From: Austropuccinia psidii
Taxonomy: Eukaryota > Basidiomycota > Pucciniomycetes > Pucciniales > Sphaerophragmiaceae
Assembly: GCA_023105745.1 (NCBI GenBank)
Contig: JALGQZ010000007.1
Span: forward strand, 56,711,569 to 56,775,568
Reading direction: 5' to 3'
Length of the DNA stretch: 64,000 bases
Position 1 is the stretch's first letter; the number at the start of each line of letters is the position of its first letter. A model generated the notes under the pieces. The model did not search any database, had not been told where the DNA came from, and saw nothing but the letters and a program-made list of their open reading frames with translations. Positions 13,324 through 64,000 of the stretch are shown one piece after another. Position numbers and translations under genes: made by a program.

Positions 13324-13331
13324 GTAATAAA

Positions 13332-13471
13332 GGGGAGTGATATTTCCACACCTCAACCTAAAATTTACACCTAGGCCTACGCATAAAATTGTGGATTTAG
13401 ATACGCCTGCACACCTTTCATGGATGTAGTTTGCTAAATCTACACATCCAAGTGATTACTAAGTACACGCC
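13332..13471 (+). repeat. Left terminal inverted repeat, MULE copy 1
   Basis: 140 bp matching the inverse of 27,011-27,150. It starts GGGGAGTGATATTTCC and contains several (T)ACGCC-like motifs, possible transposase contact sites. Compared with copy 2, many CG dinucleotides have become TG or CA. Confidence 0.92.
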
Positions 13472-13610
13472 AAATAAGATGTTAGTAAGACGTCTATTTC
13501 AAAAATTTGACAACAAACTCTATAGTGAAAAAAATACTATATACAAGTGATCTGTCTACATTTGCAGAATAATTTTATTGATGAGGAATATACTATTCTC
13601 CAATTTGAAG

Positions 13611-16600
13611 CTAATTGATGTGAATGTGCCCAGGCCACTGTGGTGGCAATTTGGGAAGAGGTAATTTGCCTATCTCATGTTCATTGAAAATAATGAGTAT
13701 CCAATGATTACCATTTATGTGACCTAGGGAGGTTGTATGCATAATTGACACTCCACATGGACTGCATAGGGTTGGAAGGAATGTCTGTGGTGGAAAGGTC
13801 TTCCAATCTGGATGGAAAAATACAAATGGATTCTTATATGTATTTTTCAATATTGGTCCATGATCCCATTTACTTAACCAGTTATCCATTCTTGTAATAC
13901 CTGTAGCCATCGGATTAACTCTTATCTTATCCATTTCCACTGCTCCTCCCAATATTTTGTTGTAATAATTGCAATTCCTATCACTTTCCTTTATCAAATT
14001 TTGTCTCACTTCTCTCAATCTCTTTTCCTTTTGTGGGCTTGAAAGTGACAATCCCTTTGCCACCGCATGGAATCCACAATTCCCATCTTCAGGAGGATTA
14101 AGAATCTTCTCAATTAAATTGTGCATGAAAGCTGGCTGTATCTGATCAACATAGAGATTCTAATAAAAGGAGGCTATTTTTCAGTGATTCATTTGCATAC
14201 CACAATTTATCCACTCACAGGTTCTTCCAAACAATTTGAGTTATTTTGGGATCTCAAGTTTATTTCCAATCTTCCTATATCATTTAATAATTTTCTTTTT
14301 CTTTTTGTAGTACTTTCATCATCTTGGCTTTCCTCTTTTTGCATCAAATAGAACTTTCCCCCTCTCATAAATTGAGCTTTGGGACTAATAGTAGCTCTGT
14401 GCATATTTTTAAGAAATCTCTTGTGATGATTCAGGATATCCTGTTTGATTTCAAACTTAGATGGAAGCCTTTTGGTATACTTTACCCTCTTCCTTTTTAG
14501 TGATGACCTACCATGTGAAGTTACAGCCTTTTTGGGGTGACAGAGCTTAATGGTTGTGTATTGAAAGCTAAGTAGCTCGTGAATTTTCTTGATCAATTTC
14601 TTTTGTAATGGTATTTTGTGTTCATAAACTTCCTTTTAAATCTTTTCCATTTTTTGTTTCAAATTCCATTGTGAATTACAATCATGGTCCTGTTAAACAT
14701 GATATTAGAATGACAACAATCACACATATCAGAAATAAGATGGCACCTACTGCAAGAGGATTGTAAAGTAGATTCCATTGCAGATGAAAATATTCACTTC
14801 CAATGTAGCCTTTAGTATCAAGAAGTTTCTCAATTTCATGTGAGCAAGGAATCCCCATGCCATTCATTAGTGTTTTTGAGCATGGCTTAAGATTTGGTTG
14901 GTCTTTGAGCTTTTGAAATTGCTCTTCAATTATTTTTATTGCTTTGATTGATCTAGTACCAAGTAGCTGCTTAAAAGGTGGGGAAACATCAGTCAATTTG
15001 CCAACTATTTCTTTTCCCATAGTATGGTGGATATGTTGCAATTGAATATCAATGTCTGTTTTGAAATTTTGGAATACTGTAGAAAGCTCTCTATTAGAAT
15101 TATTGATGAATGATTTTATGTAGGAGTGTGCAGATTCAACACAGGAGCTGGCTTGCCCAAGCAGTGACAAATGTTTTCTTGAATGGGAGTAGGTTGTTTG
15201 AGATATATTCCCATTATCCTGAACAATCTTTTGAATTATATTTGATTTTTTGAAGATTGTTCTTTTATTACTCAGTTGACTGGGAACTGACCAGTAGGTT
15301 CCAGGATTTCTGATAATCCTTCCAATCATCCTCTTGAAAATATTTGCAACAATTTTGGATAGGGTTTTTGCTGATGTCCCATGTGCAATAATTATGGATT
15401 GAGCTAGTAAAAACCAATTTAATGGCCAACTTCAGAGCTGGCTTGCAATCCATAATAGTAACCTCGGGAATTCTGGGTGGCTGAAATAACATTTTGAGTT
15501 CTTGAAGGGCCCATATGTATCCATTGTCATTTTCCCATTCCATGTAGCAAAAGGCTAATGAGAAGGTGTGTCCAGTTGCAGTTTGGCCAACCATGTGGAA
15601 AAGTGGCAAATTGTACTTGCATTTCCGGTAAGTGGCATCACTCAATATCACATGGTAGTTTATATGACCCAATTTAATGGATGCTGGGTGTGCAAAGAAT
15701 AGGTTGGTAATATTTCCATTTATGTTAATTTTATTACTATGAATCCAATTGCTCTTTTTCAGAAGACGTGTTAGATATTTGAGTTGAGATTGCCCATTTC
15801 GTTCCTTGATTGATAGATGTCCTTTGTAGTTATACAGAGTTCTGCTAATGGTACAGGTACTTCCTTGGGCATAAATCTGGCTTAAAATCTGATTAGGACG
15901 TAAATTTGTCTTCATCAATCCTTCAACTTGAACAAGTTCTTTTTCATTAAGCCAGCAATGAATGGTGTGTACTGATGGGGTTGTAGAGGAAGAATGATTA
16001 TGCAGGATTTCTAGTGGGACTAAAACCAAATAACCAAATCTGGTGAGGTGAACTGTGTGAAATTCCTCAGAATTCATATCAGCTTAATGGTAAGAACATA
16101 GTAAATAAATACATTATATTTGATGACTTACTCAGAGCAGGAATAGAGCCTCTGAGCCTAAACTTGAATCCACATTTTTTTGTTGTTGACTGCCTCTGGG
16201 TAGGTCCTTTAAGGCTTATATATTCACCATATTGGGCACATACCAAGTAAATGTTCTTCCCTTGGTGAGAATTTTTCTTTGTTAATGCATAGCCATGACC
16301 TTTAGCCCACTTTTGTGCAAACTGAATCAGGGTATCTACATCATTGAGCCTTGCAAGTGGAGGTGGTTCTAATTTGACTATATAGTTATTCAAATCAGTA
16401 AAAGTGTAGTGGATGAATGGAAATATATGTAAGCTTACATCCAGTGGAGTAATCATATCTATCTGGGTCAGTAATGAGAGGAAATTGCTCATTAGGGACT
16501 GAAAAAGCAGGTGTGCAATGAGCAGTGGCCTGTATAGATGATTTTATTTCCTCAATATCACCTTTGAATTGAATTGTCCCAGATTCATGTAGATTTGGAC

Positions 16601-16790
16601 CTTCAATGGGTTGTAATGATTCCATTTTAGAGGCCAAGCATTCAGGTGGTGGAAGGTTGTGGGGCTTCAGCCTTTTTCTGGGAGTTAATATAGTATTCTG
16701 AGAAGGATATGAACACTCTGATTCATTATAATTGACTGGATGAGTATCAAATTGGGAGTTATCAGGCTCAAAGTGAAAGATAGGGGACAT
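13611..16790 (-). pseudogene. MULE transposase with FAR1-like DNA-binding domain and OTU protease, copy 1 (broken)
   Basis: Read on the minus strand from the ATG at 16,790. An acidic/Pro-rich N-terminus is followed by a FAR1/WRKY-like zinc domain (about 16,380-16,140; QFAQKWAKGHGYAL..CGFKFRLRGS), an apparent intron near 16,130-16,080 (GTAAGT donor), then the MULE DDE domain (SDATYRK, MDCKPALKLA, CVESAHS), a SWIM-like PCSH segment (about 14,840), a basic linker (SLKRKRV..TKRLPSKFE) and an OTU cysteine protease (DGNCGFHAVAKG and NGNHWILI). The protein would cut and rejoin the transposon ends; OTU domains remove ubiquitin. Lesions: an extra A near 16,501-16,506 shifts the frame; the CTWH histidine has become Asp; bases are missing just before the catalytic Glu region compared with copy 2; a missing base near the end changes the C-terminus. 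Confidence 0.88.
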
Positions 16791-17612
16791 AAGGGGGTAG
16801 ATGAGGATACTATTTGAATTAATTGACGTGTTTAAGAAATAGAGGTCTAAAAATGATTTTTGGTGGAATATAGATTGATATGAGTAGCTTAACAGGCTTG
16901 TAATAATGATGGGATTTATATATTTTGTAAAAGAGGAACACCTTTCCAATTCTTTCACACTGATATTGGCAACTTGTGGCTAGAGTGAGAATGATTTTGC
17001 AATAGAATTTTCGAGAAAATTATGATTATTCATGATTTGAATTAAGAGTTATTTAGTCTTTTCAATTAAATCAACAAACATCTGGATATCAAAAGAGAAT
17101 CATACTAGAATGGATTGTGGGATGAAGCTCTATTCCAAGGGAGCTTTTGTTTGAGTCTTTCTGGGAACAATCAAAGATAGATTTCTGAACACATCAAAAT
17201 GCACTTTGAACATTTTGGAAGTATTCAAAAAATTGTATATATTTTTCAAATGGATCCTTGATCGATGTGGCAACTCCGAACAGGAAGATTAATTTGGTGA
17301 CAGATGTACAATTGCAGTCTAATAACAGCTCTCATTAGGTTTAAGTCTCTGAGGGAAATAAATACAAAGTTCCCCTCAGGAATATGTGTGGCACTATTTT
17401 TCATTCTGTATTCTTATATGAATTAGAAGCTTCTAGACCAAAAAATTCAATAACCACATTCTGGCCCCCTTTGTCTCCTCATTGATTTTATAAAAGGGAT
17501 TCTCATTTTACTTTGTAGCTTAGAACTACACCCCTTTCTTATAGTTTCATAAAAATACTTCCCTTCAAAGCACATATATCATCTTTATCTACAATTAATT
17601 GTTTTTGTCTCT
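16791..17612. promoter_or_regulatory. Shared upstream region of two divergent transposon genes, copy 1
   Basis: About 0.8 kb lies between the starts of the minus-strand transposase and the plus-strand gene X. The same interval in copy 2 (37,464-38,288) is closely similar. It probably holds both promoters; no specific TATA or factor site is convincing in such AT-rich DNA. Confidence 0.45.
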
Positions 17613-19750
17613 ATGGAAACCAATAGTAACACCTCTCATATGGGTCCTCCAAAGGAATTCAATTCTCCCAAATCTTCTGATATGGAGTGCTCATCAAGTG
17701 AAAGTATCATTGCCATTAGTACAGCCCTCCCAAATCCACCTCCAGAATTGCCAGAAGGTATGTTTTTTGAATGGAATTCACTTCTGAACAAATCAGTCTT
17801 ATCAGTATCTCAACTAATCAGAAATAATGCATGAAAGCAACATAGAGGCACCCCATCCTCATTGGGCTTCTTCCACCCAAATATCTACTGAGGTGCTTTT
17901 TGGGGCTGAAATAGAAGTGATTACAAAGGAACAGTTCTTGAACAATTAATCACAAATAGCCCCCAGATTCAAAGGGATGTCCAAAGATGCACGTATTCCT
18001 CAATACATTCGAGAGAAGCTCCAGGAGGCTAGAAAACTGCTGGTTGCTGATATTGATTGTATGTATAAAAAAATTGTTATCTCATATATTTCAAATTCCA
18101 CCCTAATATCATGGAATTATAATTTTAGGGGTCAAATCGGGCAATACACTACCTCCCAAATCACATGTTAAAATTGGTACAATGACAAATATTTATTCAA
18201 AAAGGAAGTTCAAACCTTCAAAGAATCAAGCAAAAAAGAAAATTCGCCGAGCTTTTCAATTGTACCCTGAATTTAATGAGGGGGAATCAGAGGCTATTTT
18301 TCCTTCTGCTAATGCAAGTAATAATGGAAATCCAATAAACACCACAATTGATCACCCTGTTGAAATTCCTGAGATTGGAGGTGTAACTAATCATCATGAA
18401 AACATTGTTCCAAGTCCAAATTTGGACACTCAGGAAGCAACTACTGTTCCCAATGAAAATATCAGTACAGAAACTCAGAGAACAGTGGCTGAGGATGAAA
18501 TTTTATTGACCCATCAATGGACTCAGCTGCTTGTTCACTAAATCTAACTCCAATTCATTCATTCATGAAAATTATATTGGAAAATTAAAACAAATTTGAT
18601 TACATTCTAATGTCATATCATGTCTTCAAAAGGGAAGATTGGATCAAATTTCATTCACTCATTCAAAAGACCTTTATGAAGCACAAATCACTTGTTCCAA
18701 AAGATGAATTTCCAACCAAGCTCCAATGTGGGATTTGCTACGAGATTGGTAGGGACATTATAATGAAAGAGTGGCTTGAAGAGCTCCATGCAGCTGGTAA
18801 AGAGGCTTTCAGAAATATCTATATTGGTTATCTCACTAATCTCATTTTTTCATAGGCTTGGATCTGTTTTCACCAATATCTGAGGAGCCGTTAATCTATG
18901 AGACAATTGGGAATATGTAATTATTTCAAAGCAACATGTCCATACTGGTGGGTTTACCCAAGAGGCTCCATGCACTGTATCTATTGGTGCACAATCTTTT
19001 TCAACCAATTCAACATCAAAAAAAGCAAGCTGCCAAAATTTTATTTGAAGCCTTGCACTTTATATGGATGATCAGAACCCTCTATTTACATTTAATATTT
19101 CTGATTCAGCTTCCAGTGATTCTTTGTCTGTGGAAATTAGTGCTATGCGATATTTGGGCTCATATTTGAGTGTCAAAAACGTTCAGCTTTCTTCACAAAG
19201 CAATTAAATTAAAAAGGGTACTAGTATCACATCAAAAGGAATTTTAACACCAACTTTGATTGGCTTGGTCAATAATATCCTCCAGCTAATTATTGCATTT
19301 AATTGGGTGCATGCACATACTAAGGTTGATTCCGAAACTACTCAGAAGATTGAAAAGCAATTTGTCAAGAGAGGAGTGGATCCTTTGCAAGAATTGGTGA
19401 CCATTCAAGATCAGATGAAGGCTTGAAGGCCATGCTACAATCTGATTGCAGCATTCCTTACAGGGGGTGTACATTGACTTCTGGTGTGCTCAGCTGATTA
19501 CCACATTAGTTCAGCCAAAGGGACCCTTCAGCTTCTGGAAATTACATCAATGCTCAAGAGAAAAGAATCCTTGCCAGATGAAGATATTTGGAAGTGCACA
19601 GACAAGTATATATGTGAAATACATCATGAAAGCTTTTTCACGAATCGTTCATCTTTGCCAATTTGCCCAAGCAAATACCGCCTTGCAGAATATTTAGCAT
19701 TGGATTTTAGTGAGGCATGGCAAAAAAACAACCTTTGGAGTCTAGTTTAA
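17613..19750 (+). pseudogene. Unrecognised multi-exon transposon protein X, copy 1 (broken)
   Basis: It starts METNSNTSHMGPPKEF and is collinear with 38,289-40,428 in copy 2. Introns are suggested by GTATGT after residue 49 (about 17,759), GTATGT near 18,059 and GTAAAG..CATAG near 18,798-18,855, the last with a CTAAT branch-like site. The N-terminal half is Ser/Pro/Asn-rich with a Lys/Arg-rich segment (KRKFKPSKNQAKKKIRR), a possible nuclear signal. The C-terminal half is a better conserved, helix-rich 250-residue region. I do not recognise the family. Lesions relative to copy 2 include a stop in place of the Ser codon near 17,947 and GGA to TGA near 19,424. Its place in both copies implies a transposon function. 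Confidence 0.6.
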
Positions 19751-20069
19751 TCATGAACTCACCTAAAAAGGTTGGTATTGACAAAGAAATTCAAAAGGTG
19801 TAAAAGAGTGTGTGTGTGTCATATTACTTATTATTACCTGTTACCTGTAACTCATAACTATTGAGTGTCAAATATGTTTACTGTGCAGAGTCATGACTTC
19901 AAACATCTTTGTGCCAAGATTCCTATAAGATTATCCAGTGTGCTTTTGTCACCTGAGTGTGAAAAAGTCACAGGAAACAACTTCATGCCACAAGTATCAC
20001 AATAAAGAATAATTGTGCTTATGGAAAATTAGGCACAAAAGAGGAAAATATGAGAGAAGTGATGCCAGG

Positions 20070-20272
20070 GACTTTCTGAGGGGCTTGAACCCACAGAGCC
20101 TACCTGTTCCACCAAGAAAGAATGAGTTGGATTTGGTTTGCTGAAGCTATTGTCACCAACCACCCAGATTCACAACCCAGGTGCCCCCGGGTGAGTCTGG
20201 CCAGTGCCCAGGATCAAACATGCTACCTCTAAACCAGTTCAAGACGCAGAAGCTCTAACCATTAGGTCATTC
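20070..20272 (-). repeat. tRNA-derived (SINE-like) sequence in MULE copy 1
   Basis: On the minus strand there is an A-box-like stretch, TGACCTAATGGTTAGAGC (20,269-20,252), followed by a B-box-like TGTTTGATCC (about 20,220-20,211). About 120 bp further a second B-box-like stretch, GGGTTCAAGCCCC, appears. The cloverleaf does not close properly, so this is not a plain tRNA gene. The same block sits at the same place in copy 2, so it predates the split of the copies. A SINE or a tRNA-derived promoter are both possible. Confidence 0.5.
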
Positions 20273-20518
20273 ACATCACATTAACTTCCTCTTACACTTT
20301 GGGAGCAAAATGCTGATCTGACCTGAATTCTTTTCAGGTTGGCTATAATCAATTAAACCTGATTTTCTTCTAATTCAAAATATTATTTTCTTCAATATAA
20401 AATAATACGCTCAACTTGTAATTAAAAGATAGCCAAGTGAGTTTCTTTTTTAATTTTCAATTGATCAATTTATTATTTATTATTTTTTTTAATTGCTTAT
20501 TCGTCTTTAATTTGATCA

Positions 20519-21870
20519 CTAGGGCTCTTACAGCCCCAGCAATCAAACTTTTTTCCATTAATTTAAAAAAATATATATTATTTTTCTTATTTTAGTTTTT
20601 TGTTAATTTAATTAGATTGCTGGGGCTCCTACAGCCCCAGCAAGAATTATGATCTTAAGAAAAAAGATAGTATTTGTTTGTGTTTTTTAAGTTTTCATTA
20701 ATCTGACAAATTTTAAATTTTAAATTTTTTCTGAATATAATTAGATTGCTGGGGCTATAAGAGCCCCAGCAACAACAAATTGTTTTAAAAAAATATGTTT
20801 TAAATTTTTATTTTTTTTAATTCAATTTGCTTGCTGGGGCTTTAAGAGCCCCAGAAACTATTATAATTTGAAAAAAAAATATTCTTTGTTTTTTTTTGAA
20901 ATTTTCATTAATTTTTTTTCAAATTTTTAGTTTTTAATTTTCTTAAATTTAATTAGATCGCTGGGGCTGTAAGACCCCCAGCAACAATTATCATTTTAAG
21001 AAAAAAAATTATTTGTGTTTTTTTTAAATTTTAATTTTTTGGTTCTTTTCTTCATTAATTTAATCGCTGGGGCTGTAAGAGCCCCAGAAACAATGAATTT
21101 TTTTTAATTTAATTTGATGGCTGGGGCTCTTACAGCCCAAGCAACAATTATAATTTTTAAAAAAAAATTGTTTTTAAATCTTCATTTTTCATAAAAAAAA
21201 ATTTCTTTTAAATTTTTAATTCTTAATTTTTTAATTTAATTTGATTGCTGGGGCTCTTACAGCCCCAGCGACAATTATAATTTTTTAAAAAAAATATATG
21301 CTAAATTTTTGATTTAATTTGATTGCTGGGGCTCTTACAGCCCCAGCAACAATTATAATTTTAAAAAAAATATTATTTTTTTTTTGAAATTTTTGATTTT
21401 ATTTTTTTTTAATTTAATTAGATTTCTGGGCTCTTACAGCCCCAGAAACCATTATAATTTAAAAAAAAAATTCTTCTTTTTTTTTCATTAATTTTTTTTT
21501 TTAAAAAAAATATTTTTTAAATTTTTAATTTTTAACTTTTTTTTTGGGTTTTTTTTAATTTAATTAGATTTCTGGGGCTGTAAGAGCGCCAGCAACAAAT
21601 ATAATTCTGAAAAAAGAATATTATTTGTTTTTTTTCATTAATTTAATTTCTGGGGCTGCAAGAGCCTCAGCAACAATTATTTATATATTTTCTGAATTTT
21701 AATTTGAATTCTTTTTTTTATTTTTATTTAAATTACTTTCTCAGGCTGTAAGAGCCCAGCAACTATTTTCTTTAATTCAAATTATTCACTGCGGCTGCAG
21801 TGACTATTGTTGTTTTTTGTTTTATATTTTTTACTTTAGATTAGTCACTGGGGCTGTAAGTGCCCCAGTT
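20519..21870. repeat. Array of about 15 GC-rich hairpins in AT-rich spacer
   Basis: Units have the form GCTGGGGCT-5 nt-AGCCCCAGC (for example 20,619-20,641, 20,748-20,770, 21,247-21,269 and 21,325-21,347). The loop is either CTTAC or its complement, so units occur in both orientations. Other units are near 20,519, 20,833, 20,960, 21,066, 21,120, 21,425, 21,571, 21,650, 21,739, 21,787 and 21,846; they degrade toward the right end. Spacers of roughly 35-110 bp are nearly pure A/T. The corresponding spacer of copy 2 has none. Each unit could form a stable stem-loop in DNA or RNA. Confidence 0.9.
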
Positions 21871-22247
21871 ATTTTTTTTGTTAAAAATTCATTTTTTTAT
21901 TCCTTTTTTTATTTAAATTGATCCCTGGTATTCATTTTTATTTTGTTTCTTTTTTCATTTTTATTTATTTTTTTTCTTTTACTTTTATTGCTGTAGGTAA
22001 TTTCTTATTCTTTCCATTTTTATTTATTTTTTTATATTTTTGGTAATTTAATCTGGTTGCATTATTTTATCTTGTATTTACTTATTCTTTATTTAAGTTG
22101 CTCACTGGGGCAACTTCTTTTATTTATTTATTTTAAAGAATTTAATTTGTTTATTTCGATTTTATTTTTAAAAATTTACTTATTTTTTTTAATAAAAATC
22201 ATTCTAGGGGAAAGCCCCACACGCTGCTTCTTGCTTTTTCACTGATC

Positions 22248-23640
22248 ATGAATCAACAGTCACCATACCAACTCATCAAGCTCTTAAAATGTATGGAGTC
22301 ACTTAATGATGAAGAAAAACATTTCATGGGAAGGACTATTTCACCAGTTGTAAATGATTTTTCTTCATCAATTAGTGACTCAATGCATCCAAAAACCCTT
22401 CAAAACTCAAGCTTACACAACACAAACGGAAAGGATGAGTCATTTTTGCATTCTGAGGATCATTTCATGGGAAGGACTATTTCACCAGTTGTAAATGATT
22501 ACCCCTTATCCAAAAAGAAATTTAATCATTCACATAGAAGATTTCAAATTGCACAAAAATTACTCAGCCAAATTTTGGACCATGCATCAAGAAGCAGAGG
22601 CGAATTCAGTACAGTTCCAGTTAAACCCAAGCAAAATCAAAAAAAAACTCTTATTACCATCTATAAATGAAACCCCAAATCCTTCAATAGTTTTCAATTC
22701 AAAAAATCATGAGCCCCTATTCATTTATCACTTGCATCCATTTCATAATCCTTCTAAAATATTTACCTCATTAAATCAATTAATAATATCGCTTTACACA
22801 TTAGCCCAAAATTGTCCTCATATCAAATCCAATAGTGATCTTATTGATGGTCATATAAAAGGAGTTGGATTTTGCTGTGGAAGTGATAGTGGTAAATCCT
22901 TAGGTGAGTCTTTAGAAAATTATATTCAAGAATATTTTGTTAATTTTCTGCTCCTTTTACTAGGTGTTTATGCGAGGAAGACCACATTAAATAAAGAAAA
23001 ATTAGAGGCAGATAATGAAGAATGGATGGCCCTTTCTATATTTGAAAATTTTGTTTCCTCCCACATCAAGATTCTATCTATGTGTGCTTCCCGTGAGAAT
23101 AATGACATAATGCAAGGAGCCCAGCTACCTGAATGGCATGAAGGTGAATGGAATCCAATGTTCCACCAAAATTTACAGTCTTTCTCCAATGTAATCATAA
23201 CAAAAAATGGTTTTCATAATCATGTTCATTGAGATGAGAAGGACATAAATACTTGTACTTATGGTTTGTTCACATTCTTTGAAAAATCTGTCATACAATC
23301 AATTCCATCTCCCATCCACTCCTGTGGCTATGGGCTCTCATTTCCTGAATACTCCACACATTTGGATTTTTGTTTCAAACAAGGTATTATTGAGCTTCTC
23401 TGGAAAACTTCAACAACTTTGCACCAAACCACTGAGCAACCTCCTATTTTTGATGAACTTCCCACCATAACTCACTTTGGCTGTTCTTTGCAAATCAACC
23501 CCAAGCTATATTCAAGAGCTAGAAGCCTCATATTTATGGATCCAATAAGCCAAGAAGAGAAGACTTATGGGCTTCAAGAAAGGATTCAAAATGAAGATAA
23601 AAGAAATAAACATAAAAAAATGAAGCTTTCCAACATATAA
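22248..23640 (+). pseudogene. Tet/JBP-like 2OG-Fe(II) dioxygenase, MULE copy 1 (broken)
   Basis: Two exons: 22,248-22,903 and 22,964-23,640, with a 60-bp GTGAGT..CTAG intron that joins cleanly to give GKSLG-VYARK. The family oxidises modified bases in DNA (5-methylcytosine in animal TETs, thymine in JBPs) using Fe(II) and 2-oxoglutarate. The C-terminal half matches the fungal Tet-like pattern: an HxD iron motif, GLFTFF, a SFPEYS..LDF strand pair, GIIELLWKT, the second iron histidine in LHQTT and HFGCSLQIN. Lesions: a run of A near 22,632-22,640 shifts the frame, and TGA at 23,230-23,232 replaces the middle codon of the HxD motif. The N-terminus has a 40-bp direct repeat. Confidence 0.78.
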
Positions 23641-24321
23641 ATTTCTTGTTACTTTCCATTTCTTTTGATGTATATTTTCAACCTTAGCCTAGGAAAATTT
23701 TTCATGAAATGGGATGTCTGATGCAAACTTGGGTACAAATTTTCATTTGGTGAAATTTTTGAAATATATTTCATTAAGTATACTGGGGAATGTCCTCCAT
23801 GCATTCTGTTTGAAGTCAGGAATTCAAATAGCAAGATTCTTCTCATGCAGAGCATTATACAATTATATTGCCATATCCAAGAATAAATCTCCTTGCCTCT
23901 CTAAATTGACCTACTTTTTTCTCCGTCAGCTTAATATAAAATGATGATTATGTTAAAAAACCACCCAATTGATCAAAAAATATGTGAAGATAAGAATCCA
24001 TCCCAATAATTGATAAAGTGTGTGGCAAAGAAATGCAGAATTTATCTTATGAGATTATGATTAAGATTCTGATTGTCAAATAATATCTTCATCTGCCATG
24101 CACTCAAGCTATCAATCAGAAATAAAAATTGAGGCCTCATTTGTCACTCAAACAGTGTTTTATTGAACCTCATGTGAAATTCCTTATAATAAAAATAGAA
24201 CTGGCAAACCACAAGCCAGCCTTATTAGTATAAAAATTACTTTAGTATATATTCTCACTCTCCAGTTCATTTCATTTAATATTCATTCCTGTCAAGATCA
24301 AACTGAATCTTTTTTTGAAAT

Positions 24322-26973: not shown

Positions 26974-27010
26974 CTGTGAAATTATAGTTCTTTTGGATTA
27001 AAAAAATTGG

Positions 27011-27150
27011 GGCGTGGATTTAGTAATCACTTGGATGCATGGATTTAGCAAACTACAACCATGCAAGGCATGAAGGCATATCTGAATCCACAATTTTATG
27101 CATAGGCATAGGCGTAAATTTTAGGTTGAGGCATGGAAATATCACTCCCC
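27011..27150 (-). repeat. Right terminal inverted repeat, MULE copy 1
   Basis: 140 bp, inverse of 13,332-13,471, ending ATCACTCCCC and followed by the target duplication GTAATAAA. Five or more positions that are CG in the right repeat of copy 2 are CA here. Confidence 0.92.
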
Positions 27151-27158
27151 GTAATAAA

Positions 27159-29648: not shown

Positions 29649-29653
29649 AATAC

Positions 29654-33420: not shown

Positions 33421-33757
33421 AATAAACCAGCACTTGAAACTCCCCCTCTAGAAGAAGTAGAAGAGAAGCAAATTGCAAAATTCCTCAAAGAATGGAGGAC
33501 AAGAAACAAGAAAGAAAGGGAATACCTTGTTAGGTATAGAAACCCAACTTGAGAATATGAATGGCTACTTGAGAAGGATATAAATAATTCTGATAATCTA
33601 CTGAGATGGTTCATAAAATAAAGAAGACCTAAATAATAGAAAGGTTAAGCATTATTGAGCTTCAAGACTAATAAAGTCTGATGAAGAGGTAGGACACTGG
33701 ATGATACCCTAATTAACTATATCAGATTGTGGTGAAATCCCTTTTGGTGGTAGGGAA
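33421..33757 (+). other. 3' untranslated tail and polypurine tract of gypsy A
   Basis: Non-coding tail after integrase, matching the tail of element B in position. It ends in the purine-rich stretch GGTGGTAGGGAA (33,746-33,757), the expected plus-strand primer, directly before the 3' LTR, whose first bases have decayed to TTTAAGCC. Confidence 0.7.
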
Positions 33758-33994
33758 TTTAAGCCTTTGAGATATGACCACATATCCAAAAAGGTCACAA
33801 AATAAATTTACAATAATTATTCTAAAAATAGTTGAAAATATTATCTTAAAATGAGTAAAAATTCCATAAATGGGCATAAATTCTCAATTAACTTATAATC
33901 TAATGAATAAACATGTGAAATTAATTGTACCATTTGATACCTCATGTTAAAATTCACATATAAACTTTTTAATTCATATCTGTAAAGAAAATAC
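33758..33994 (+). repeat. 3' LTR of gypsy A, first part
   Basis: The first 237 bp of the 3' LTR (…AAGCCTTTGAGATATGACCA) are cut off from the rest by MULE copy 2. The last eight bases, GAAAATAC (33,987-33,994), are the target duplication. Confidence 0.9.
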
Positions 33995-34133
33995 GGGGAG
34001 TGATATTTCCATGCCTTAACCTAAAACTTACGCCTATGCCTACGCAAAAATTGTGGATTCAGATACGCCTTCACACCTTTCATGGATGTAGTTTGCTAAA
34101 TCCACGCATCAAATTGATTACTAAATCCACGCC
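33995..34133 (+). repeat. Left terminal inverted repeat, MULE copy 2
   Basis: 139 bp matching the inverse of 46,200-46,339, starting GGGGAGTGATATTTCC, with repeated TACGCC-like motifs. Confidence 0.92.
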
Positions 34134-34197
34134 AAATAAGATGTTTATAAGATGTTTATCTCAGAAATTTGACAAAAAACTCTAAAATGAAAAAATG

Positions 34198-37100: not shown

Positions 37101-37463
37101 ATGTAAGCTTATGTCCAGTGGAGTAATCATATTGATCTGGGTCGGTAATGAGAGGGAATTGTTCATTAGGGACTGAAAAGCAGGTGTGCAATGAGTAGTG
37201 GCCTGTATAGATGATTTTTTTTCCTCAATATCACCTTTAAACTGAGTTGTCCCAGATTCATGAAGTTTCATAGCTTCAATGGGTTGTAATGATTCCATTC
37301 TAGAGGTCAAGCATTCAGGTGGTGGAAGGTTGTGGGGCTTCAAGGTTTTCCCAGGTGTTAATATAGTATTTTGAGAAGGATATGAGCACTCTGATTCATT
37401 ATAATGGACTGGATGGGTATCAAATTGGGAGTAATCAGGCTCAAAGTGAAAGATAGGGGACAT
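34198..37463 (-). pseudogene. MULE transposase with FAR1-like DNA-binding domain and OTU protease, copy 2 (nearly complete)
   Basis: Minus strand from ATG 37,463. The first exon (to about 36,820) is open and holds the FAR1-like domain (QFAQKWAKRHGYAL..CGCKFRLRGS, Cys restored relative to copy 1). An intron follows at about 36,815-36,760. The DDE domain (36,346 downward) has IDATYRT, ITDCEPALKMA, CTWHISKN and RNESAHSYLK, so both Asp, the His and the catalytic Glu are present. The OTU domain (34,788 to 34,198) has ADGNCEFHAVAKG and NGNHWILIIF, so its Cys and His are present. Lesions: TAA at 35,575-35,573 in place of a Glu codon of copy 1, and frame breaks between 36,350 and 36,740 and between 34,790 and 35,030, some of which may be introns. 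Confidence 0.88.
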
Positions 37464-38288
37464 AAGGGGTAGATGACGAAAATATTTGAAACAATTGATG
37501 TGTTTAAGAAATAGAGGTCTAAAAATGATTTTTGGTGGAATATAGATTGATATGAATAGCTTAACAGTCTTTTAATAATGGTGGAATTTATATATTTTGT
37601 AAAAGAGTAACACCTTTACAATTCTTTCACACTAATATTGGCAACTTGTGGTTAGAGTGAGAATGATTTGGCAATAGAATTTTCGAGAAAATTGTGATTA
37701 TTAATGATTTGAATTAAGATTTATTTGGTCTTTTCAATTGAATCAACCAACATCTGGATATCAAAACAGAATCATACTAGAATGGATTGTGGGATAAAGT
37801 TCTATTCCAAGGGAGCTTTTGTTTGAGTCTTTCAGGGAACAATCAAAGATAGATTTCTGAGCACATGAAAATACACTCGGAACATTTTTGAAGTATTCAA
37901 ATAGCTGTATATATTTCTCAAATGGATCCTTGATCGATGTGGCAACTCCGAACAGGAAGATGAATTTGGGGACAGGTGTACAATTTCAGTCTAATCACAG
38001 CTCTCATTAGGTTTCAGTCTGTAAGGGGAGCAAATATAAAGCTCCCCTCAGGTCTTGTTATGTGTGGTACTATTTTGCATTATGTATTCTCATATGAATT
38101 AGACGCTTCTAGACCAAGAAATTCCATAACCACATTCTGGCCCTCTTTGTCTCCTCATTGAGTTTATAAAAGGGATTCTCATTTTAATTTTTAGCCTTTA
38201 ACTACAAACCTTTTTTATAATTTCATAAAGATACTTCCCTTCCAAGAACATATATCATCTTTATCTACAATTAGTCATTTTTGTCTCT
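37464..38288. promoter_or_regulatory. Shared upstream region of two divergent transposon genes, copy 2
   Basis: Conserved counterpart of 16,791-17,612, between the starts of the transposase gene and gene X. It contains no coding frame of its own, so its similarity between the copies reflects common origin of the transposons and probably a two-way promoter. Confidence 0.45.
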
Positions 38289-40428
38289 ATGGACGCCAAT
38301 ACTACTAACACCTCTGATATGGGTCCTCAAAAGCAATTCAATTCAGCCAAATCTTCTTATATGGAGTGCTCATCAAGTGAAAGCATCATTGCAATTAGTA
38401 CAGCCATCCCAAATCCACCTCCAGAATTTCCAGAAGGTATGTTTTTTGAATGGAATTTACTTCAGAACAAATCAGTCTTATCAGTATCTCAATGAATCAG
38501 AAATAATGCACGAAAGCAACATAGAGGCACCCCATGCTCATTGGGCTTCTTCCACCGAAATATCTACTGACCTGCTTTTTGGGGCTGAAATAGAAGTGAT
38601 TACAAAGGAACAGTTCTTGAACAATTCATCACAAATAGCCCCAAGATTAGAAGGAATGTCCAAAGATGCACATATTCCTCAATATGTATGAGAGAAGCTC
38701 CAGGAGGCTAGAGAACTGCTGGTTGCTGATATTGATTGTATGTATAAAAAATTGTTATCTCATATATTTCACATTCCACCCTAATATCTTGGAATTATAG
38801 CTTTAGGGGTCAAATCGGGCAATACACTACCTCTAAAATCACATGTTAAAATTGGTACAATGACCCACATTTCTTCAAAAAGGAAGTTTAAACCTTCAAA
38901 GAATCAAGCAAAAAAGAAAATTTGCCGAGCTTTTCAATTGGCCCCTGAAGTTAATGAGGGGGAATCAGGGGCTCTTTGTCCTTCTGGTAATGAAAGTAAT
39001 AATGGAAATCCAATAAACACCACAAATGATCACCCTGTTGAAATTTCTGAGATTGGAGGTGTAACCAATCATCATGAAAACATTGTTCCAAGTCCAAATT
39101 TGGACACTCAGGAAGCAACTACTGTTCCCAATGAAAATATTGGTACAGAAACTCAAAGAACATTGGCTGAGGATGAAATTGTATTGACCCATCAATGGAT
39201 TCATTTGCTCGTTCACTAACTCCAACCCGAAGTCCTTCATGCATGAAAATTATATTGGAAAATGAAAACAAATTTGATTACATTCTAATGTCATATCATG
39301 TCTTCAAAAGGGAATATTGGATCAAATTTAATTCGCTCATTCAAATGACCTTCATGAAGTGCAAATCACTTGTTCCAAAGGATGAACTTCCGACCAAGCT
39401 CCAATGTCGGATTTGCTACAAAAGTGGTAGGGACATTAGAATGAAAGAGTGGCTTGAAGAGCTCCATGCAGCTGGTAAACAGGCTTTCAGAAATATATAT
39501 ATTGGTATCTCACTAATCTCAATTTTTCATAGGCTTAGATCTGTTTTCACCAATATCTGAGGAGCCGTTAATCTATGAGTCAATTTGGAATATGTCATTA
39601 TTTCAAAGTGACATGTCCATACTGGCAGGTTTACCCAAGAGGCTCCATGCACTGTATCTATTGGTGCACAATCTTGTTCAACCAAGTCCACATCAAAAGC
39701 AGCGAGTTGCCAACATTTTATTTGAAGCCATTGCACTTTATATGGATGATCAGAAACCTCCGGTTACATTCAATATTTCTGATTCAGCTTCCAGTGATTC
39801 TTTGTCTGTGGAAATTAGTGCTATGCAATATTTGGGCTCCTGTTTGAGTGTCAACAAGGTTCAACTAGTTTCACAAAGCAATGAAAGTCAAGAAGGTACT
39901 ACTATCACATCAAAGGGAATTTTAACACCAACTTCGACTGGCTTGGTTGATAATATCCTCCAGCTGATGATTGCATTTAATTGGGTGCTGGCGCACACTA
40001 AGGTTGATTCCAAAACTACTCAGAAAATTGGAAAGCAATTGGTCAAGAGAGGAGTGGATCCTTTGCAAGTGTTGGTGACCATTCAAGATCAGATGAAGGC
40101 TGGAAGGCCATGCTACAATCTGATTGCAGCATTCCTTACAGGGGGTGTACGTGGACTTCTGGTGTGCTCAGCTGATTACCGCACTAGTTCAGCGAAAGGG
40201 ACCCTTCAGCTTCTGGAAATTACATCAATTCTCAAGAGAAAAGAATCCTTGTCAGATGAAGATATTTGGAAGCACACAAACAAGTATATATGTGAAATCC
40301 TTCATGAAAGCTTTTTCTCGAATCCTTCATCTTCACCAATTTGCCCAAGCAAATACCGCCTTGCAGAATATTTAGCATTGGATTTTAGTGAGGCATGGCA
40401 AACAAACACCCTTTGGAGTCTAATTTAA
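38289..40428 (+). pseudogene. Unrecognised multi-exon transposon protein X, copy 2
   Basis: ATG at 38,289 (MDANTTNTSDMGPQKQF). Likely introns: GTATGT 38,437 to CAG about 38,501; GTATGT about 38,738 to TATAG about 38,802; GTAAAC about 39,475 to CATAG about 39,532. The last one joins HAAG to LDLFSPISEEPLIYE. The final long exon to 40,428 is open (LPKRLHALYLLVHN, LVKRGVDPLQVLVTIQDQ, CYNLIAAFLTGG, KYRLAEYLALDFSEAW). A basic segment near 38,875-38,930 may be a nuclear signal. TGA near 38,689 and an unresolved frame change near 39,190 suggest lesions. The family is not recognised. Being next to the transposase and kept in both copies, it may be a DNA-binding or accessory transposition factor. Confidence 0.6.
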
Positions 40429-40739
40429 TCATGAACTTACCTAAAAAGGTTGGTATTGACAAAGAAATTCAAAAGGTGTAGTAGCGTGTGCGTGTGTCAT
40501 ATTACTTATTATTACCTGTGACCTGTAATTCATCACTATTGGGTGCAGGATATGCTTACTGTGTGGAGTCATGACTTCGAACAGCTTTGTACCAAGCTGC
40601 TTGTAATATTATCCAGTGTGCGTTTGTCACCTGAGTGAAAAAAAAGTCATGGGTAACAAGTTGATGCCACAAGTATCACAATAGAGAATAATTGTGCTTA
40701 TGGTAATTTAGCGCAAAAAGATGAAGGTTTGAGAGAAGT

Positions 40740-40960
40740 GATGCCAGGGACCTTCTGAGGGGCTTGAACCCACAGAGCCTACCTGTTCCACCAAGGAAGA
40801 ATGAGTTGGATTTGGTTTGCCGAAGCTATTGTCACCAACCACCCAGATTCACAACCCAGGTGCCCCCAGGTGAGTCTGGCCAGCGCCCAGGATCAAACAT
40901 GCCACCTCTCAACCAGCTTGAGAGGCAGATGCTCTAACCGTTAGGTCATTCACATCATAT
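40740..40960 (-). repeat. tRNA-derived (SINE-like) sequence in MULE copy 2
   Basis: Minus-strand A-box-like TGACCTAACGGTTAGAGC (40,948-40,931), an anticodon-arm-like CTGCCTCTCAAGC, a B-box-like GTTTGATCC (40,898-40,890) and a second B-box-like GGGTTCAAGCCCC (about 40,771-40,759). It is at the same position as in copy 1. The arms do not form a clean cloverleaf, so it is not called a tRNA gene. Confidence 0.5.
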
Positions 40961-40964
40961 TGAT

Positions 40965-41590
40965 TTTAGTTGGTCTTTTCAAAGCAAAATAACCCCCACC
41001 ACAGACCTTTTTTCATTTTTAATTTAATCACTCAAACCTAGCCTTTTCAAAATTAATAAAATATTTTTCTTAAATATAAAGTAATCCTCTCAACCAAAAA
41101 CTTGTAATCAATACACTGAAGTAAGTTTTTTTTTAATTTTCAATTTAGCAATATTTTCTTTTTATTTCATTGTTTTTTTTTAAAAAAAAATCTTTTTTTT
41201 TTGTTTAAAATTTTATTTAAAAGAAAAATCATTTTTTTTACTTCTTAATTATTTTTTTCAATAATTTAAGCTGCAGCAACAATCATTTTTTTAAAAAATA
41301 AATATTTTTGATTTTTATTTTATTATTATTTTTTTGATTTAATTTCCAAAAAAAATATTTTTGGTTTTTTTTTTGTTAAATTTTATTTTTTTGGTTGTTT
41401 TGGTGTTAATTCAACCGTAAACTCTGATTTTTTTAAATTAAAAAATTTAAATTTATATTTACTAATTTTTTTTCAATTTTGTTACAACAATTATTTTTAA
41501 AAAAAAAAACTGATTTTTTTTATTAAAATTCAAGCAACCATGATTTTTATTGACTTATTTTACTTTTTCTTTAATAAAAATCATTCTAGG
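40965..41590. other. AT-rich spacer of MULE copy 2 without hairpins
   Basis: Counterpart of the hairpin-array spacer of copy 1 but only about 0.6 kb. It is made of T- and A-runs. A single 'gctgcagcaacaat' near 41,270 resembles the flank of a hairpin unit. No gene is seen. Confidence 0.6.
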
Positions 41591-41629
41591 GGAAAGCCTC
41601 ACCTGTAGTTTCTTGCTTTTTCACCTATC

Positions 41630-43041
41630 ATGAATCAACAGTCACCATACCAACTCATTGAGCTCCCAAAATGTATGGAGTGACTTAATGATGAAGAAAA
41701 ACATTTCATGGGAAGGACTATTTCACCAGTTGTAAATGGTTTTTCTTCATCAATTAGTGACTCAATGCATCCAAAAACCCTTCGAAACTCAAGCTTACAC
41801 AGCACAAATGGAAAGGATGAGTCATTTTTTCATTCTGAGGATCATTCCATGGGAAGGACTATTTCACCAGCTGTGAATGATTCCCCCTTATCCAAAAATG
41901 ACTCATCTCTAAATAAGAAATCTAATCATTCACATAGAACATTTCAAATTGCACAAAAATTACTCACCCAAATCTTGGACCATGCATCAAGAAGCAGAGG
42001 CAAATTCAGTACAGTTCCAGTTAAGCCCAAGCCAAATAGAATAAATAAGCTTTTATTACCTTCCATAAATGAAACACCAAATCCTTCAATTGTTTTCAAT
42101 TCAAAAAATCACGAGTCCCTCTTCATTTATCACTTGCATCCATTTCATATTCCTTCTCCAACTTTTACTTCATTAAATCAATTAATAATATCACTTTACA
42201 AATTCGCCCAAAATCGTCCTCATATTAAATCCAATAGTGATCTCATTGATGGTCATATGAAAGGAGTTGGATTTCGCTGTGGAAGTGATAGGGGTAAATC
42301 CTTAGGTGAGTCTTTAGAAAATTATATTCAAGTTTTTTTGTTAATTTTATTCTCCTTTTACTAGGTGTTTATGCCAGGAAGACCACAATGAATCCAGAGG
42401 TATTAGATGCAGATAATGAAGAATGGATGACCCTTTCTCGGTTTGAAAAATTTGTTTCCTCCCGCATCAAGAGTCTTTCTATGTCTGCTGCCCGTGAGAA
42501 TAATGAAATCATGAAAGAAGCCCAGCTACCTGAATGGCATGAAGGTGAATGGAATCCAATGTTCCACCAAAAATTACGGTCTTTCTCCAATGTGATCATA
42601 ACTACAAATGGTTTTCATAATTGTGTTCATAGAGATGAGAAGGACAAGAATACTTGGACTTATGGTTTGTTCACATTCTTTGACAAATCAGGCATAAAAC
42701 CAATTCCATCTCCCATCCGCTCCTGTGGCTATGACCTCTCATTTCCTGAATACTCCACACTTTTGGATTTTTCTCGCAAACAAGGTATTATTGAGCTTCT
42801 CTGGAAAACTTCGACCACTTTTCACCAGACCACTCAGCCACCTCCTATTTTTGATGAACTTCCTACCATAACTCACTTTGGATGTTCTTTCCAAATCAAC
42901 TCCAAGCTATATTCAAGAGCTAAAAGCCTTATATGTATGGATCCAATAACCCAAGAAGAGAAGACATATGGACATCAAGAAAGGATTCAAAATGAAAAGC
43001 AAAGACATCAACCAAAAAAAATGAAGCTTTCAAATATATAA
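41630..43041 (+). pseudogene. Tet/JBP-like 2OG-Fe(II) dioxygenase, MULE copy 2 (one early stop)
   Basis: Exons 41,630-42,305 and 42,365-43,041 with a 59-bp GTGAGT..CTAG intron; about 450 codons in total. The iron-binding His and Asp are intact in VHRDEKD (42,628-42,636) and the second His in FHQTT (42,823-42,825), 65 residues later. SFPEYSTLLDF, GIIELLWKTS, THFGCSFQIN and YSRAKSL follow, as in fungal Tet-like oxygenases. The N-terminus is Ser/Asn-rich with two HxMGRTISPxVN repeats. The only lesion seen is TGA at 41,681-41,683 (codon 18), where copy 1 has TCA. Initiation at the ATG 41,708 would avoid it and keep the whole catalytic domain, so this gene could still be active. Substrate is unknown. 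Confidence 0.8.
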
Positions 43042-43494
43042 ATTTCTTGTAATTTACCATTTCTTTTGATGTAGCTTTTCAACCTTAGACTAGGATACTT
43101 ATGCATGAAATGGGAAGGTTGATGCAAACTTTAGTACATATTTTCCTTTGTTGACTTTCTTGAAATATATTTCCTTAAGTATCCTTAGGAATTTGCTTCA
43201 TGTATTCTGTTCGAAGTCAGGACTTTGAATAGAAAGATTTTTCTCATTCAGAGCTTGATACAATTATATTTACATATCCAAGAATAAACGTCCTTGCCTC
43301 TCTAAATTGAGCTGTTTTTTTCAAACAATATTTTATTGAACCTTGCGTGTTTCTATTTATAATACAAAGAGTAACTGCAAACCACAAGCTGGCCTGATTA
43401 GTATCAAAATTACTTTAGTATATATTCTTGCTCTCCAGTTCATTGCATTTACCATTCATTCCTGTCAAGATCAAACTGAATCTTTTTTCAAAAT

Positions 43495-46161
43495 ATGGAT
43501 TCTTCCAAGCCTTATTGCCTTGGGATATTGAAAACCCATGTACGCCTCACTAATCCCATTCAGAAACCTTTTCCTCCGGATGATTGGATTTTCTTATGTC
43601 ATACAAGTCAAAATTTATTCTTGTATACACGACATCAAAGAGAAGCTTTGGGTAGCCTTCCTCTGGATGTCACCTCTGCACTTGTACCATTATTGGGTGA
43701 CCCCAATTTCTTTATATCCTGTGGTCCTTCTGGCATGAGGCACACCAATCTAGAGAAAAACCCCAACCAGAAAGTATTCATTGAAAGCTTTCTCAAGTTT
43801 AACCTTTACAACATGATAAACATCACTATTCCAATAGTAATGTTTATTTTTTTGTTTTCCTCAGCAAGCATTGATATATTTGACCTCATTAGACAGAATT
43901 CAATATTAATTCACCAACCAGCCACATACAACAGCTCTGAACATTGTGGGTGTTCACTTATCTCACACCTGGAGCCCCAGCCTGTTATCTCTTCTCAGAA
44001 CGTATTGTTGTCACCTGAGCTGCACTCACAGCTCCTAAAGATTCCAAGTGGGAATGATCTTCCACAAATCGAATCCGTAATACCATTCCTAAAATCATCA
44101 CTCAAGCCTCATCAAAAGCAAGGATTAGCATTTCTCCTAGATAGAGAAGCCCCAAATGGAAAATTGGCAAATTCTCTGTGGTTAAGTAAACCATCATCCT
44201 CATCTACAAGAATAAATTTGATACATAGAATCACAAAGAAGCAAGTAAATAACCTCGAAGACACCTTCAGCCATACTCCCTTGGGCTGTCTGCTTGCGGA
44301 TGACATGGGACTAGGGAAATCAATTCAGTGCATATCACTCATATGTATGACTCTTGAAGATTCCAAAAGAGATATTCCACCATCCATTCACTTTATTAAT
44401 AAAAAACAAAAAACTCCACACTCATAATATGCTTACCTCGTTTGATAAAGAATTGGGAAAATGAATTAAAATTACATACAGACATATCCCGACTAAAGAT
44501 TGTCACCTATCATGGGAAGAAAAGAAAGGAGATTGGACTGAAAAAATGGTCTTAAGCTGATATTGTAATATCCAGCTATCATTTTTTAGCTCATGAGTTT
44601 GGTAAGCCTAATAATATAGAAAACTCTTCGATTTACCATAGTGAATGGTACCGAGTTGTCTTAGATGAGGCCCAGTGAGTTTTTCAAATTATTATTTATA
44701 AATTGTGGAATTCTGATGAATGATATATAAATTAAATTGACATACCTAGTCAGATAAGAAATCAGGAGTCAACTTTCTTCAAAGCAATTTGAGCAATACA
44801 AACATCCAGACGCATTTGCCTGACAGGAACCCCTATTCAAAACAGTATAAATGACTTAATGAGTCTAATCACCTTCATTACAGCACCTCAAAGTGAAAAA
44901 CAAGAGAATTGGGTACCAAATATATCGGAAGAGCTCAAAAAAGGAAATTATAGCCCCCTTCAGTTATGCCTGAGGCATCTTTGTCTACAAAGAAACAAGG
45001 ACCGCATTTTAAATGATCTACCTGAAATTAATCATGATTATATCCATGAACCTCTCTCAGATTGGACGTTAGATAGATATAATGATATTTACAAAGAGTT
45101 CATATCATCATCTCATCAAGGCCCAGAAATGTTCTTCAAGTATTTAAACAAGCTTTGCCTTTGTTGCAATCATCACTTGCTTAGTGAAAGTATATATGAC
45201 ATTGAAGGTATAATCTCACCATATGGGACAAAGATAGAAGGGGGTTTTTTTAATAGTACCATAACAGAACTTGTTGATGTCAAAACATGTCTACAAAGCA
45301 CTAAAATTCAGAGGCTCCTGAAAATTCTTTTATCACGCCGAAACATTAAAAATTCAACCCCAAAATCAGTGATTTTTTCACAGTTTACAACATTTCTTGA
45401 TTTTTAAGTTGGGTTATTTCCCTTATTTTGTCTATTAAACTTCTGCTTTGTACCTCTCTTTTGATAATTATGAAGCTTTTGATTGACAATTATTTGTGAT
45501 GAACTGGTAGGATTGGAATTGTCTTAGAAAACAATAAGATCATTTTTACACGTGTTGATGGAACAATAGGCCAAGCTACACAGGAAGCAGAACTCAAGAA
45601 ATTCAAGGAAAACAGCAATGTAGAAGTACTTGTGGCTTCAATAGGGGCTGCAGGGGTTGGCCTGAATATAACTTGTGCAGAAGTGGTATTTATAATGGTA
45701 TGAATTATGATTATATGACCATGAGGCAATATTTTAATATAATCTATATATCTAATATATGTCTAGGAGCCTCATTGGAATCCAGCTGCTGAAGATCAAG
45801 CTATTGATTGTCTACATCCTATTGGACAAAGGAAAAATGTAATGGCATACCATTTTGTATCACCTGATACAGTGGAGATAAACATGCAAAGGGTATGTTA
45901 ATTCATAAGAAGTTTTATTTAATGAAAAATTTAGAACCACTTATTTTAGATTTATGAATTACAGGTACAACAGAGGAAGCGTACTTTGGCAAGGTGTGTA
46001 CATTTTTAATCATTCAAATCACTGAGTGGATTTTATTTTCCTGTCCTTATGGTGGTTATTTTTTTCATGTAAGAACAACTTTAGCAAGTACTTTGACATA
46101 TGCTGAGCTATCAAAACTTTTCTTAGAGACTCATATGAACATCGAAATTGAAAGTGGGTAA
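43495..46161 (+). pseudogene. SNF2-family ATPase (Rad5/HLTF-like), MULE copy 2 (broken)
   Basis: ATG 43,495 (MDSSKPYCLGILKTHVR). The first frame stays open to 44,427 and includes SSLKPHQKQGLAFLLDRE and Walker A LADDMGLGKS. Then come IICLPRLIKNWENELKLH, RLKIVTYHGKKRKE, WYRVVLDEA, LTGTPIQNSINDLMSLI, VIFSQFTTFLDF, GTIGQATQEAEL, ASIGAAGVGLN, EPHWNPAAEDQA and HPIGQRKN. The intron 44,675-44,749 joins GCCCA to T, completing DEAH. The last exon ends ELSKLFLETHMNIEIESG at TAA 46,159-46,161, 38 bp before the terminal repeat. Lesions: a frameshift in the A-run near 44,402-44,413, a stop near 44,554, and the donor after LDF changed from GTAAGT to TTAAGT (about 45,405). No RING finger is visible. Confidence 0.85.
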
Positions 46162-46199
46162 CTGTGAAATTATAGTTCTTTTGGATTAAAAAAAATGGG

Positions 46200-46339
46200 G
46201 GCGTGGATTTAGTAATCACTTGGATGCATGGATTTAGCAAACTACATCCATGAAAGGCGTGAAGGCGTATCTGAATCCACAATTTTATGCGTAGGCGTAG
46301 GCGTAAGTTTTTGGTTAAGGCGTGGAAATATCACTCCCC
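46200..46339 (-). repeat. Right terminal inverted repeat, MULE copy 2
   Basis: 140 bp ending ATCACTCCCC, inverse of 33,995-34,133. It retains the most CG sites of the four terminal repeats in this window (runs of GGCGTAGGCGTAGGCGTAAG), so it is closest to the ancestral end. Confidence 0.92.
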
Positions 46340-46347
46340 GAAAATAC

Positions 46348-53130: not shown

Positions 53131-53132
53131 TT

Positions 53133-61478: not shown

Positions 61479-61483
61479 AGCAC

Positions 61484-63999: not shown

Positions 64000-64000
64000 T

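Follow-up and report, generated by a model that had tools for sequence, protein, structure and literature searches.

A multi-copy family of Mutator-like elements carrying Tet/JBP-like and SNF2 genes in the rust fungus Austropuccinia psidii

The stretch of DNA analysed here (hereafter the window) is composed of 64,000 nucleotides of the Austropuccinia psidii genome (contig JALGQZ010000007.1; G000:C7:56711569-56775568), and the genome searched has 1,015,390,075 bases in 84 contigs. The window contains two copies, E1 and E2, of a Mutator-like element (MULE) that carries a Tet/JBP-like gene, an SNF2 ATPase gene, a gene here called X and a likely OTU protease gene in addition to its transposase. 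This TET-carrying MULE family is real, multi-copy and undescribed in the literature that was searched; its anatomy is firm, and its function is one that we infer. An earlier note on this DNA had placed a giant MULE-like transposon, seen in two copies, at 13332-46339. A single 33-kb element is ruled out: there are two elements of 12-14 kb, for which "giant" is generous, each with its own duplication and separated by 6.8 kb. The common ends, 8-bp duplications and gene order that the same note reported are present at both. GGGGAGTGATATTTCC opens both E1 and E2 and its reverse complement closes both, within inverted repeats of approximately 140 bp, and the two elements align in three main blocks with about 89-92% identity. 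The gene order is fixed, with the OTU-like frame and the MULE transposase on the minus strand, and X, the Tet-like gene and SNF2 on the plus strand. The features are as follows; c9 is one of the further copies in the genome, labelled c1 to c10.

13332..27150, no strand assigned: E1, 13,819 bp, an older, decayed copy, delimited by inverted repeats (13332-13471 and 27011-27150) and the 8-bp duplication GTAATAAA on both sides (13324-13331 and 27151-27158)
13611..14159, minus: E1 OTU-like frame, PF02338 E 0.12, under the cut-off, 85% identity to c9
14682..16543, minus: E1 MULE transposase, broken, PF10551 2.5e-19, three stops in the compared exon
17553..19750, plus: E1 gene X, broken, from its frames, four stops in the compared exon
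20518..21869, plus: E1 palindrome array, 12 imperfect 23-bp units (GCTGGGGCT, a 5-base loop, AGCCCCAGC), also seen as repeat family D5
22217..23640, plus: E1 Tet-like gene, interrupted by a stop, PF20515 in two frames (5.5e-06 and 1.2e-05)
24359..26604, plus: E1 SNF2 gene, decayed, PF00176 2.2e-09 and 4.1e-16
33995..46339, no strand assigned: E2, 12,345 bp, delimited by inverted repeats (33995-34133 and 46200-46339) and the 8-bp duplication GAAAATAC on both sides (33987-33994 and 46340-46347)
34198..34842, minus: E2 OTU-like protease frame, PF02338 E 0.0038, under the cut-off, with DGNC and NHW boxes
35027..35269, minus: E2 open frame between transposase and OTU, assumed to be a linking exon, 160 amino acids in c9
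35330..37571, minus: E2 MULE transposase and N-terminal part, PF10551 1.9e-26 in 35576-36451, frame interrupted by stops
38289..40428, plus: E2 gene X, several exons, from open frames and 33 relatives
41630..43041, plus: E2 Tet-like gene, two frames with one putative intron, PF20515 5.5e-25 in 42310-43038
43495..45901, plus: E2 SNF2 ATPase gene, several exons, PF00176 4.7e-09 and 7e-16, PF00271 1.4e-07, stops in mid-gene

Perfect 8-bp duplications surround all seven copies with both ends in hand (E1, E2, c1, c4, c9, c10 and c7), the site of c1 being a poly-A run and thus little informative; in the stretches examined of c2, c3, c5, c6 and c8, one or both exact ends are missing. The six long copies with both ends measure 12.3-13.9 kb, and the deletion derivative c7 8.0 kb. 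Long inverted repeats together with 8-bp duplications are as expected of MULEs, whose duplications are 8-11 bp. The PF10551 matches of E1 and E2 bear out the earlier assignment of the transposase to this class, and in c9 it is a single frame of 475 amino acids (PF10551 3.9e-27, past the 27.6-bit cut-off) in which candidate D, D and E residues for the catalytic triad are visible. There is also a weak FAR1 match in Pfam (0.25) at the E2 transposase, and the IS256 model of NCBIfam gives 8.9e-10, yet under that model's cut-off. A KDZ identity is ruled out, as Pfam searches up to E 1 (E2) and 0.1 (c9) returned MULE and no KDZ model.

The protease proposed in the earlier note stands as OTU-like: its DGNC and NHW boxes, which we take to be the OTU catalytic boxes (Cys, His), are invariant across the three aligned sequences. 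The family match is weak (0.0038 in E2, 0.0044 in c9 and 0.12 in E1), each under the Pfam cut-off, and solved chains are matched at E 0.36-0.4 only. The E2 linking frame has no Pfam family at or near the cut-off. From the gene layout, it is possible that transposase and OTU are spliced as one protein.

The E2 exon at 42,400-43,000, on whose placement in the Tet/JBP family the earlier note had made its proposal depend, belongs to the Tet-like family PF20515 with 89 bits against a cut-off of 27; the two E1 pieces score 27.0 bits, which equals the cut-off, and 25.8 bits, just under it. The two E2 frames run on as GKSLGVYARKTT in the annotated protein P0001, which bears out the one exon join that was followed. 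The HxD...H iron site (H81-x-D83 and H146 of the frame at 42388) is nearly invariant among 45 sequences. The search for relatives returned 22 proteins: 19 from A. psidii, one from P. graminis and two without a name. Across the searches, the relatives are for the most part rust proteins. A fold model was built from the annotated full-length relative P0003 with a 48-sequence alignment; a model from the E2 exon itself (14 sequences) was dropped, with a predicted local distance difference test score (pLDDT) of 57 and diffuse structural matches. The predicted fold of P0003 resembles TET2, CMD1 and NgTET, as a TET fold should; its best structural match is TET2 (19.9), and the best Foldseek match is CcTET (1.9e-08). 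A sequence-profile search for solved Tet relatives gave none up to E 1. The predicted fold supports the assignment of the product as a putative Tet/JBP-type dioxygenase.

Regarding other Tet genes, PF20515 gave 7,498 first-look candidates genome-wide, and the best 150, which were scored, are all over the cut-off. The best 30 loci (L009-L038) form two other Tet families, of 17 and 13 loci, with DNA unrelated to the MULE-borne Tet at the thresholds used. Three P. graminis proteins (P0019, P0066 and P0067) have a Tet-like domain under the source name "Ubiquitin carboxyl-terminal hydrolase 7", perhaps through misnaming or fusion.

The SNF2 ATPase was likewise recognised correctly in the earlier note, as PF00176 is found in E1 and E2. 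Both expected domains are present in c9 (PF00176 1.6e-24 and 2.6e-17; Helicase_C, PF00271, 8.5e-08). The motif that had been called a DEAH box reads DEAQ, and the E2 frame around it holds stops; a WNPAAEDQAID...IGQ stretch is also present in E2. Among solved chains, the first SNF2 exon has the repair-type proteins RAD54 and RAD5 as top matches, and the second the remodellers CHD4, SMARCA5 and CHD1. In NCBIfam, the SNF2 frames match bacterial helicases with scores well short of the cut-offs.

Gene X has no Pfam or NCBIfam family (E2 and c9 frames), and all 33 relatives returned are annotated in A. psidii. In the interval from X to Tet, the 23-bp palindrome occurs as 3-12 units per copy in 11 of 12 copies (86 units in total, counted with up to 3 mismatches), E2 being the copy with none. 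The loops are CTTAC in 35 units and GTAAG in 32, and both orientations occur. The rest of the window has 0 units, and 108 kb of sequence from other Tet loci also gave 0. The array may be a terminator or a boundary. Adjoining the end of X, the minus strand of 40420-40960 has a tRNA-like start (box-A- and box-B-like pieces, by eye), possibly of an old short interspersed element, and gave nothing in ARAGORN or Rfam. A tRNA in the X-Tet spacer is ruled out by ARAGORN, which found none in the window and six loci, and a known RNA by Rfam, with none above threshold in 13000-47000 and one match at chance level in 40400-41700.

Copy and linkage numbers refer to the best-scoring matches listed, and a gene that lacks a match there may still be present. 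A DNA search with the left end gave 714 candidates, of which the best 40 were scored, all with at least 91% identity; because the same end recurs at these 40 places, the structure of E1 and E2 is not due to chance. With the core Tet exon, the best 40 of 367 candidates were scored, all with at least 96% identity. Protein searches listed at least 150 places for Tet, at least 134 for the transposase, at least 150 for SNF2 (151 matches) and at least 130 for X. Linkage was defined as 1-30 kb from the transposase in element orientation. On this definition, 78 of the 134 transposase matches listed have Tet (median 8.2 kb), 76 have SNF2 and 68 have X, and SNF2 follows 101 of the 150 Tet matches listed, at a median of 2,384 bases downstream. 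When the strand was flipped over the whole lists, every pairing gave 0. All of the best 50 transposase matches have at least one of the three genes downstream in orientation: 47 have Tet, 44 SNF2, 42 X, and 42 both Tet and SNF2. Another 35 of the 134, all of rank 56 or lower, have no Tet, SNF2 or X among the matches listed.

Other copies with the same terminal repeats also carry Tet, a second point on which the original proposal hung: among the best 40 left ends, Tet is found at 31 (15 with a transposase match and 16 without) and no Tet match at nine. The Tet gene therefore lies within an element that is repeated and has defined ends, which is what characterises a TET+ DNA transposon. Eight of the 40 left ends belong to short derivatives: Tet lies at a distance of 3.7-5.7 kb, a transposase match is lacking, and SNF2 is linked in four of the eight. 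Copy c7 (L051/L052) is without transposase and has kept Tet and SNF2; c8 (L053/L054), also without transposase, has kept Tet and lost most of SNF2. In a Tet tree of 20 copies the short derivatives c7, c8 and L066 form no single clade. These derivatives presumably moved using transposase from fuller copies.

Comparison with known systems places the family among the carriers of transposon-borne Tet genes, in a class that is not listed as a carrier in the literature searched. A 2014 PNAS paper is said to concern fungal TET/JBP genes and KDZ, and the earlier note tied fungal Tet/JBP to that class. A restriction of fungal Tet to KDZ is out of date, as TET/JBP genes are now described in 11 DNA-transposon lineages, none of them MuDR/MULE in the main text of the source, which brings up MuDR in connection with plants and oomycetes and does not contain the terms OTU, SNF2 and Mutator (PMC12730594). 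Rusts have TET+ DNA transposons with PU-type Tet in seven lineages (Dileera, hAT7, Harbinger/PHISTA, IS3EU, EnSpm, ESTA and Helitron), and the present family resembles them in its copy number, defined ends, Tet/JBP-like gene and occurrence in Pucciniales, including A. psidii with its Harbinger and EnSpm relatives; it differs, on comparison with that main text, in its MULE class and in SNF2 and OTU (PMC12730594). It shares a transposon-linked fungal Tet with Kyakuja/KDZ and the CcTET of mushrooms, the top Foldseek match (PMC12730594), whereas the transposase class differs and the Tet is 11% identical by structure. Arabidopsis VANDAL elements with VANC are also of the Mutator class and carry a gene that counters silencing by DNA methylation; VANC, however, is a sequence-specific binding protein, in contrast to the Tet-type enzyme and SNF2 ATPase of the A. 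psidii MULE (PMC5735166, PMC10398659). Fungal MULEs, in Puccinia and elsewhere (group 35, Hop sub-groups), have the same kind of transposase and terminal inverted repeats of 30-220 bp, with FAR1 in half of the members and minisatellites in some other groups, but are reported with one open reading frame and, in the table entries compared, no Tet, SNF2 or OTU (PMC6446971). The open-licence literature searched yielded no MULE that carries Tet, SNF2 or OTU; in the available text of PMC12210899 and PMC8063080 a search for TET found nothing, and the former mentions MuDR once.

In order to look for selection, the ratio of nonsynonymous to synonymous polymorphism (pN/pS) was computed pairwise among copies other than E1. 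The values are 0.35 (0.18-0.71) for OTU, 0.44 (0.27-0.75) for X, 0.58 (0.33-1.18) for Tet, 0.57 (0.33-1.05) for SNF2 exon a, 1.11 (0.62-2.77) for SNF2 exon b and 0.68 (0.37-1.40) for the transposase. In the other two frames, used as controls, the values are 0.76-1.52 for OTU, X, Tet and SNF2 a, 0.64 and 1.16 for the transposase, and 0.76 and 0.62 for SNF2 b; for these last two, pairwise pN/pS therefore shows nothing. Because the pairwise values are suggestive but wide, variants shared by two or more copies were compared with singletons (7-20 copies per exon). The shared-variant ratios are 0.37 (OTU), 0.45 (X), 0.49 (Tet), 0.48 (SNF2 a), 1.15 (transposase) and 1.07 (SNF2 b), against singleton ratios of 0.90, 0.97, 0.95, 0.73, 0.71 and 1.08, respectively. 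Pooled over the six exons, the counts are 87:55 for shared and 339:128 for singleton variants (Fisher p=0.012), and one stop variant is shared versus 18 that are singletons. Among c5, c9 and c10, divergence is 0.3-0.6% in the core Tet exon versus 2.9-4.0% in the adjacent spacer; exon and spacer diverge alike in the pairs c1-c4 (2.5 vs 2.2) and E2-c4 (2.6 vs 2.4). By eye, 42 of the best 50 Tet matches and 32 of the best 50 transposase matches are free of stops over the stretch that matches. In this test for purifying selection, which the earlier note had proposed, the data give a weak signal for the first SNF2 exon and for OTU, X and Tet.

The copies also bear a trace of CpG decay. With the majority letters of the copies as reference, CpG to TpG changes in copies other than E1 number 266 of 1,758 (0.151), versus 113 of 13,802 (0.008) at CpA and 187 of 18,449 (0.010) at CpY; in E1 they reach 71 of 207 (0.34), versus 0.04 at other C. 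The observed/expected CpG ratio is 0.27 in E2, 0.14 in E1 and 0.16 in the window. In A. psidii 0.37-0.54 of the CpGs per chromosome carry 5-methylcytosine, with more in younger transposable elements (PMC12774611). CpG decay and the reported methylation together make it very likely that the mark a Tet enzyme would target was once placed on the copies; the same decay implies that any protection is incomplete.

On balance we think it somewhat probable that this MULE family, with its Tet/JBP-like gene, SNF2, X and likely OTU inside the terminal repeats, undoes the cytosine methylation and closed chromatin by which its rust host would silence it. The Tet enzyme would oxidise 5-methylcytosine on element DNA, SNF2 would shift nucleosomes and so give access to Tet, transcription and the transposase, OTU might deubiquitinate the transposase or chromatin, and X may direct the machinery to the element. 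The earlier note had suggested such an anti-silencing role, which the CpG-decay trace and the weak selection signals make plausible and which we infer here. Several points weigh against it. Both window copies carry broken genes: in E1, stops or frame breaks affect the first SNF2 exon as well as the transposase, X and Tet, and E2 has stops in the transposase frame and the middle of SNF2. No single exon is significant for selection, and the transposase and second SNF2 exon are without signal. A perfectly working Tet should prevent CpG decay, yet the copies decay at CpG. TET2 holds its cofactor, 2-oxoglutarate, at an Arg after the distal His, and in a sequence alignment of 14 Tet proteins no conserved Arg/Lys is seen there. 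The OTU match falls under the Pfam cut-off, and the activities of the products are predictions from sequence. A stronger form, which we advance tentatively, is that this is the first MULE family fully equipped with enzymes against silencing (a demethylase of Tet-like type, a remodeller in SNF2, a deubiquitinase in OTU) and with X as a new targeting protein. The set would be a separable module, kept as Tet and often SNF2 in derivatives without transposase, which would have spread as epigenetic shields for the family.

The cargo could instead be passive: Tet, SNF2 and X would have entered an ancestral MULE in a single chance capture and merely amplified along with it, as in a Pack-MULE. MULEs are known to capture host sequence (PMC6446971), selection is weak, with shared ratios above 1 in two exons, and many copies have stops; but the low shared ratios of the other four exons, the scarcity of shared stops and the short derivatives that lost the transposase and retained Tet make this unlikely, and the conserved Tet core exon of c5, c9 and c10 also opposes it, though not the pairs c1-c4 and E2-c4. 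We give still less credence to a Tet that is no eraser and makes a lasting modified base (5-hydroxymethylcytosine or further modified) or shields from methylation-linked C-to-T mutation, since the best structural match, TET2, is an oxidising eraser and no glycosyltransferase-like gene was seen in the element. It is similarly improbable that SNF2 and OTU serve transposition (excision access, gap repair, transposase stability), leaving only Tet, or nothing, as anti-silencing: the RAD54 and RAD5 matches of the first SNF2 exon and the position of OTU next to the transposase on the same strand fit such a role, but the second SNF2 exon is closest to remodellers, and SNF2 goes with Tet. It is very improbable that the half with Tet and SNF2 is a transposon of its own, nested in the MULE; a variable palindrome array divides the halves and some derivatives retain only the Tet side, but the duplications lie at the outer ends in all seven copies and every one of the best 50 transposase matches has at least one cargo gene downstream, though no search aimed at inner ends was made. 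Transposon-borne Tet-like enzymes offer a natural experiment on how silencing can be overcome. This family adds the Mutator class to the Tet carriers and joins Tet with an SNF2 ATPase as well as a likely protease; its host is a rust with a 1-Gb genome in which 5-methylcytosine has been measured (PMC12774611).

The window contains other repeats. One family lies at 6708-7746, 9870-10910 and 46385-47427, the third copy beginning just past the right end of E2. The repeats at 27727-29537 and 49010-64000 are 93-98% alike, have long frames and are perhaps nested retroelements. Long frames of 586 and 1,088 amino acids occur at 54351-59378, and a 2.5-kb inverted pair is found at 55041-57562 and 61478-63999.
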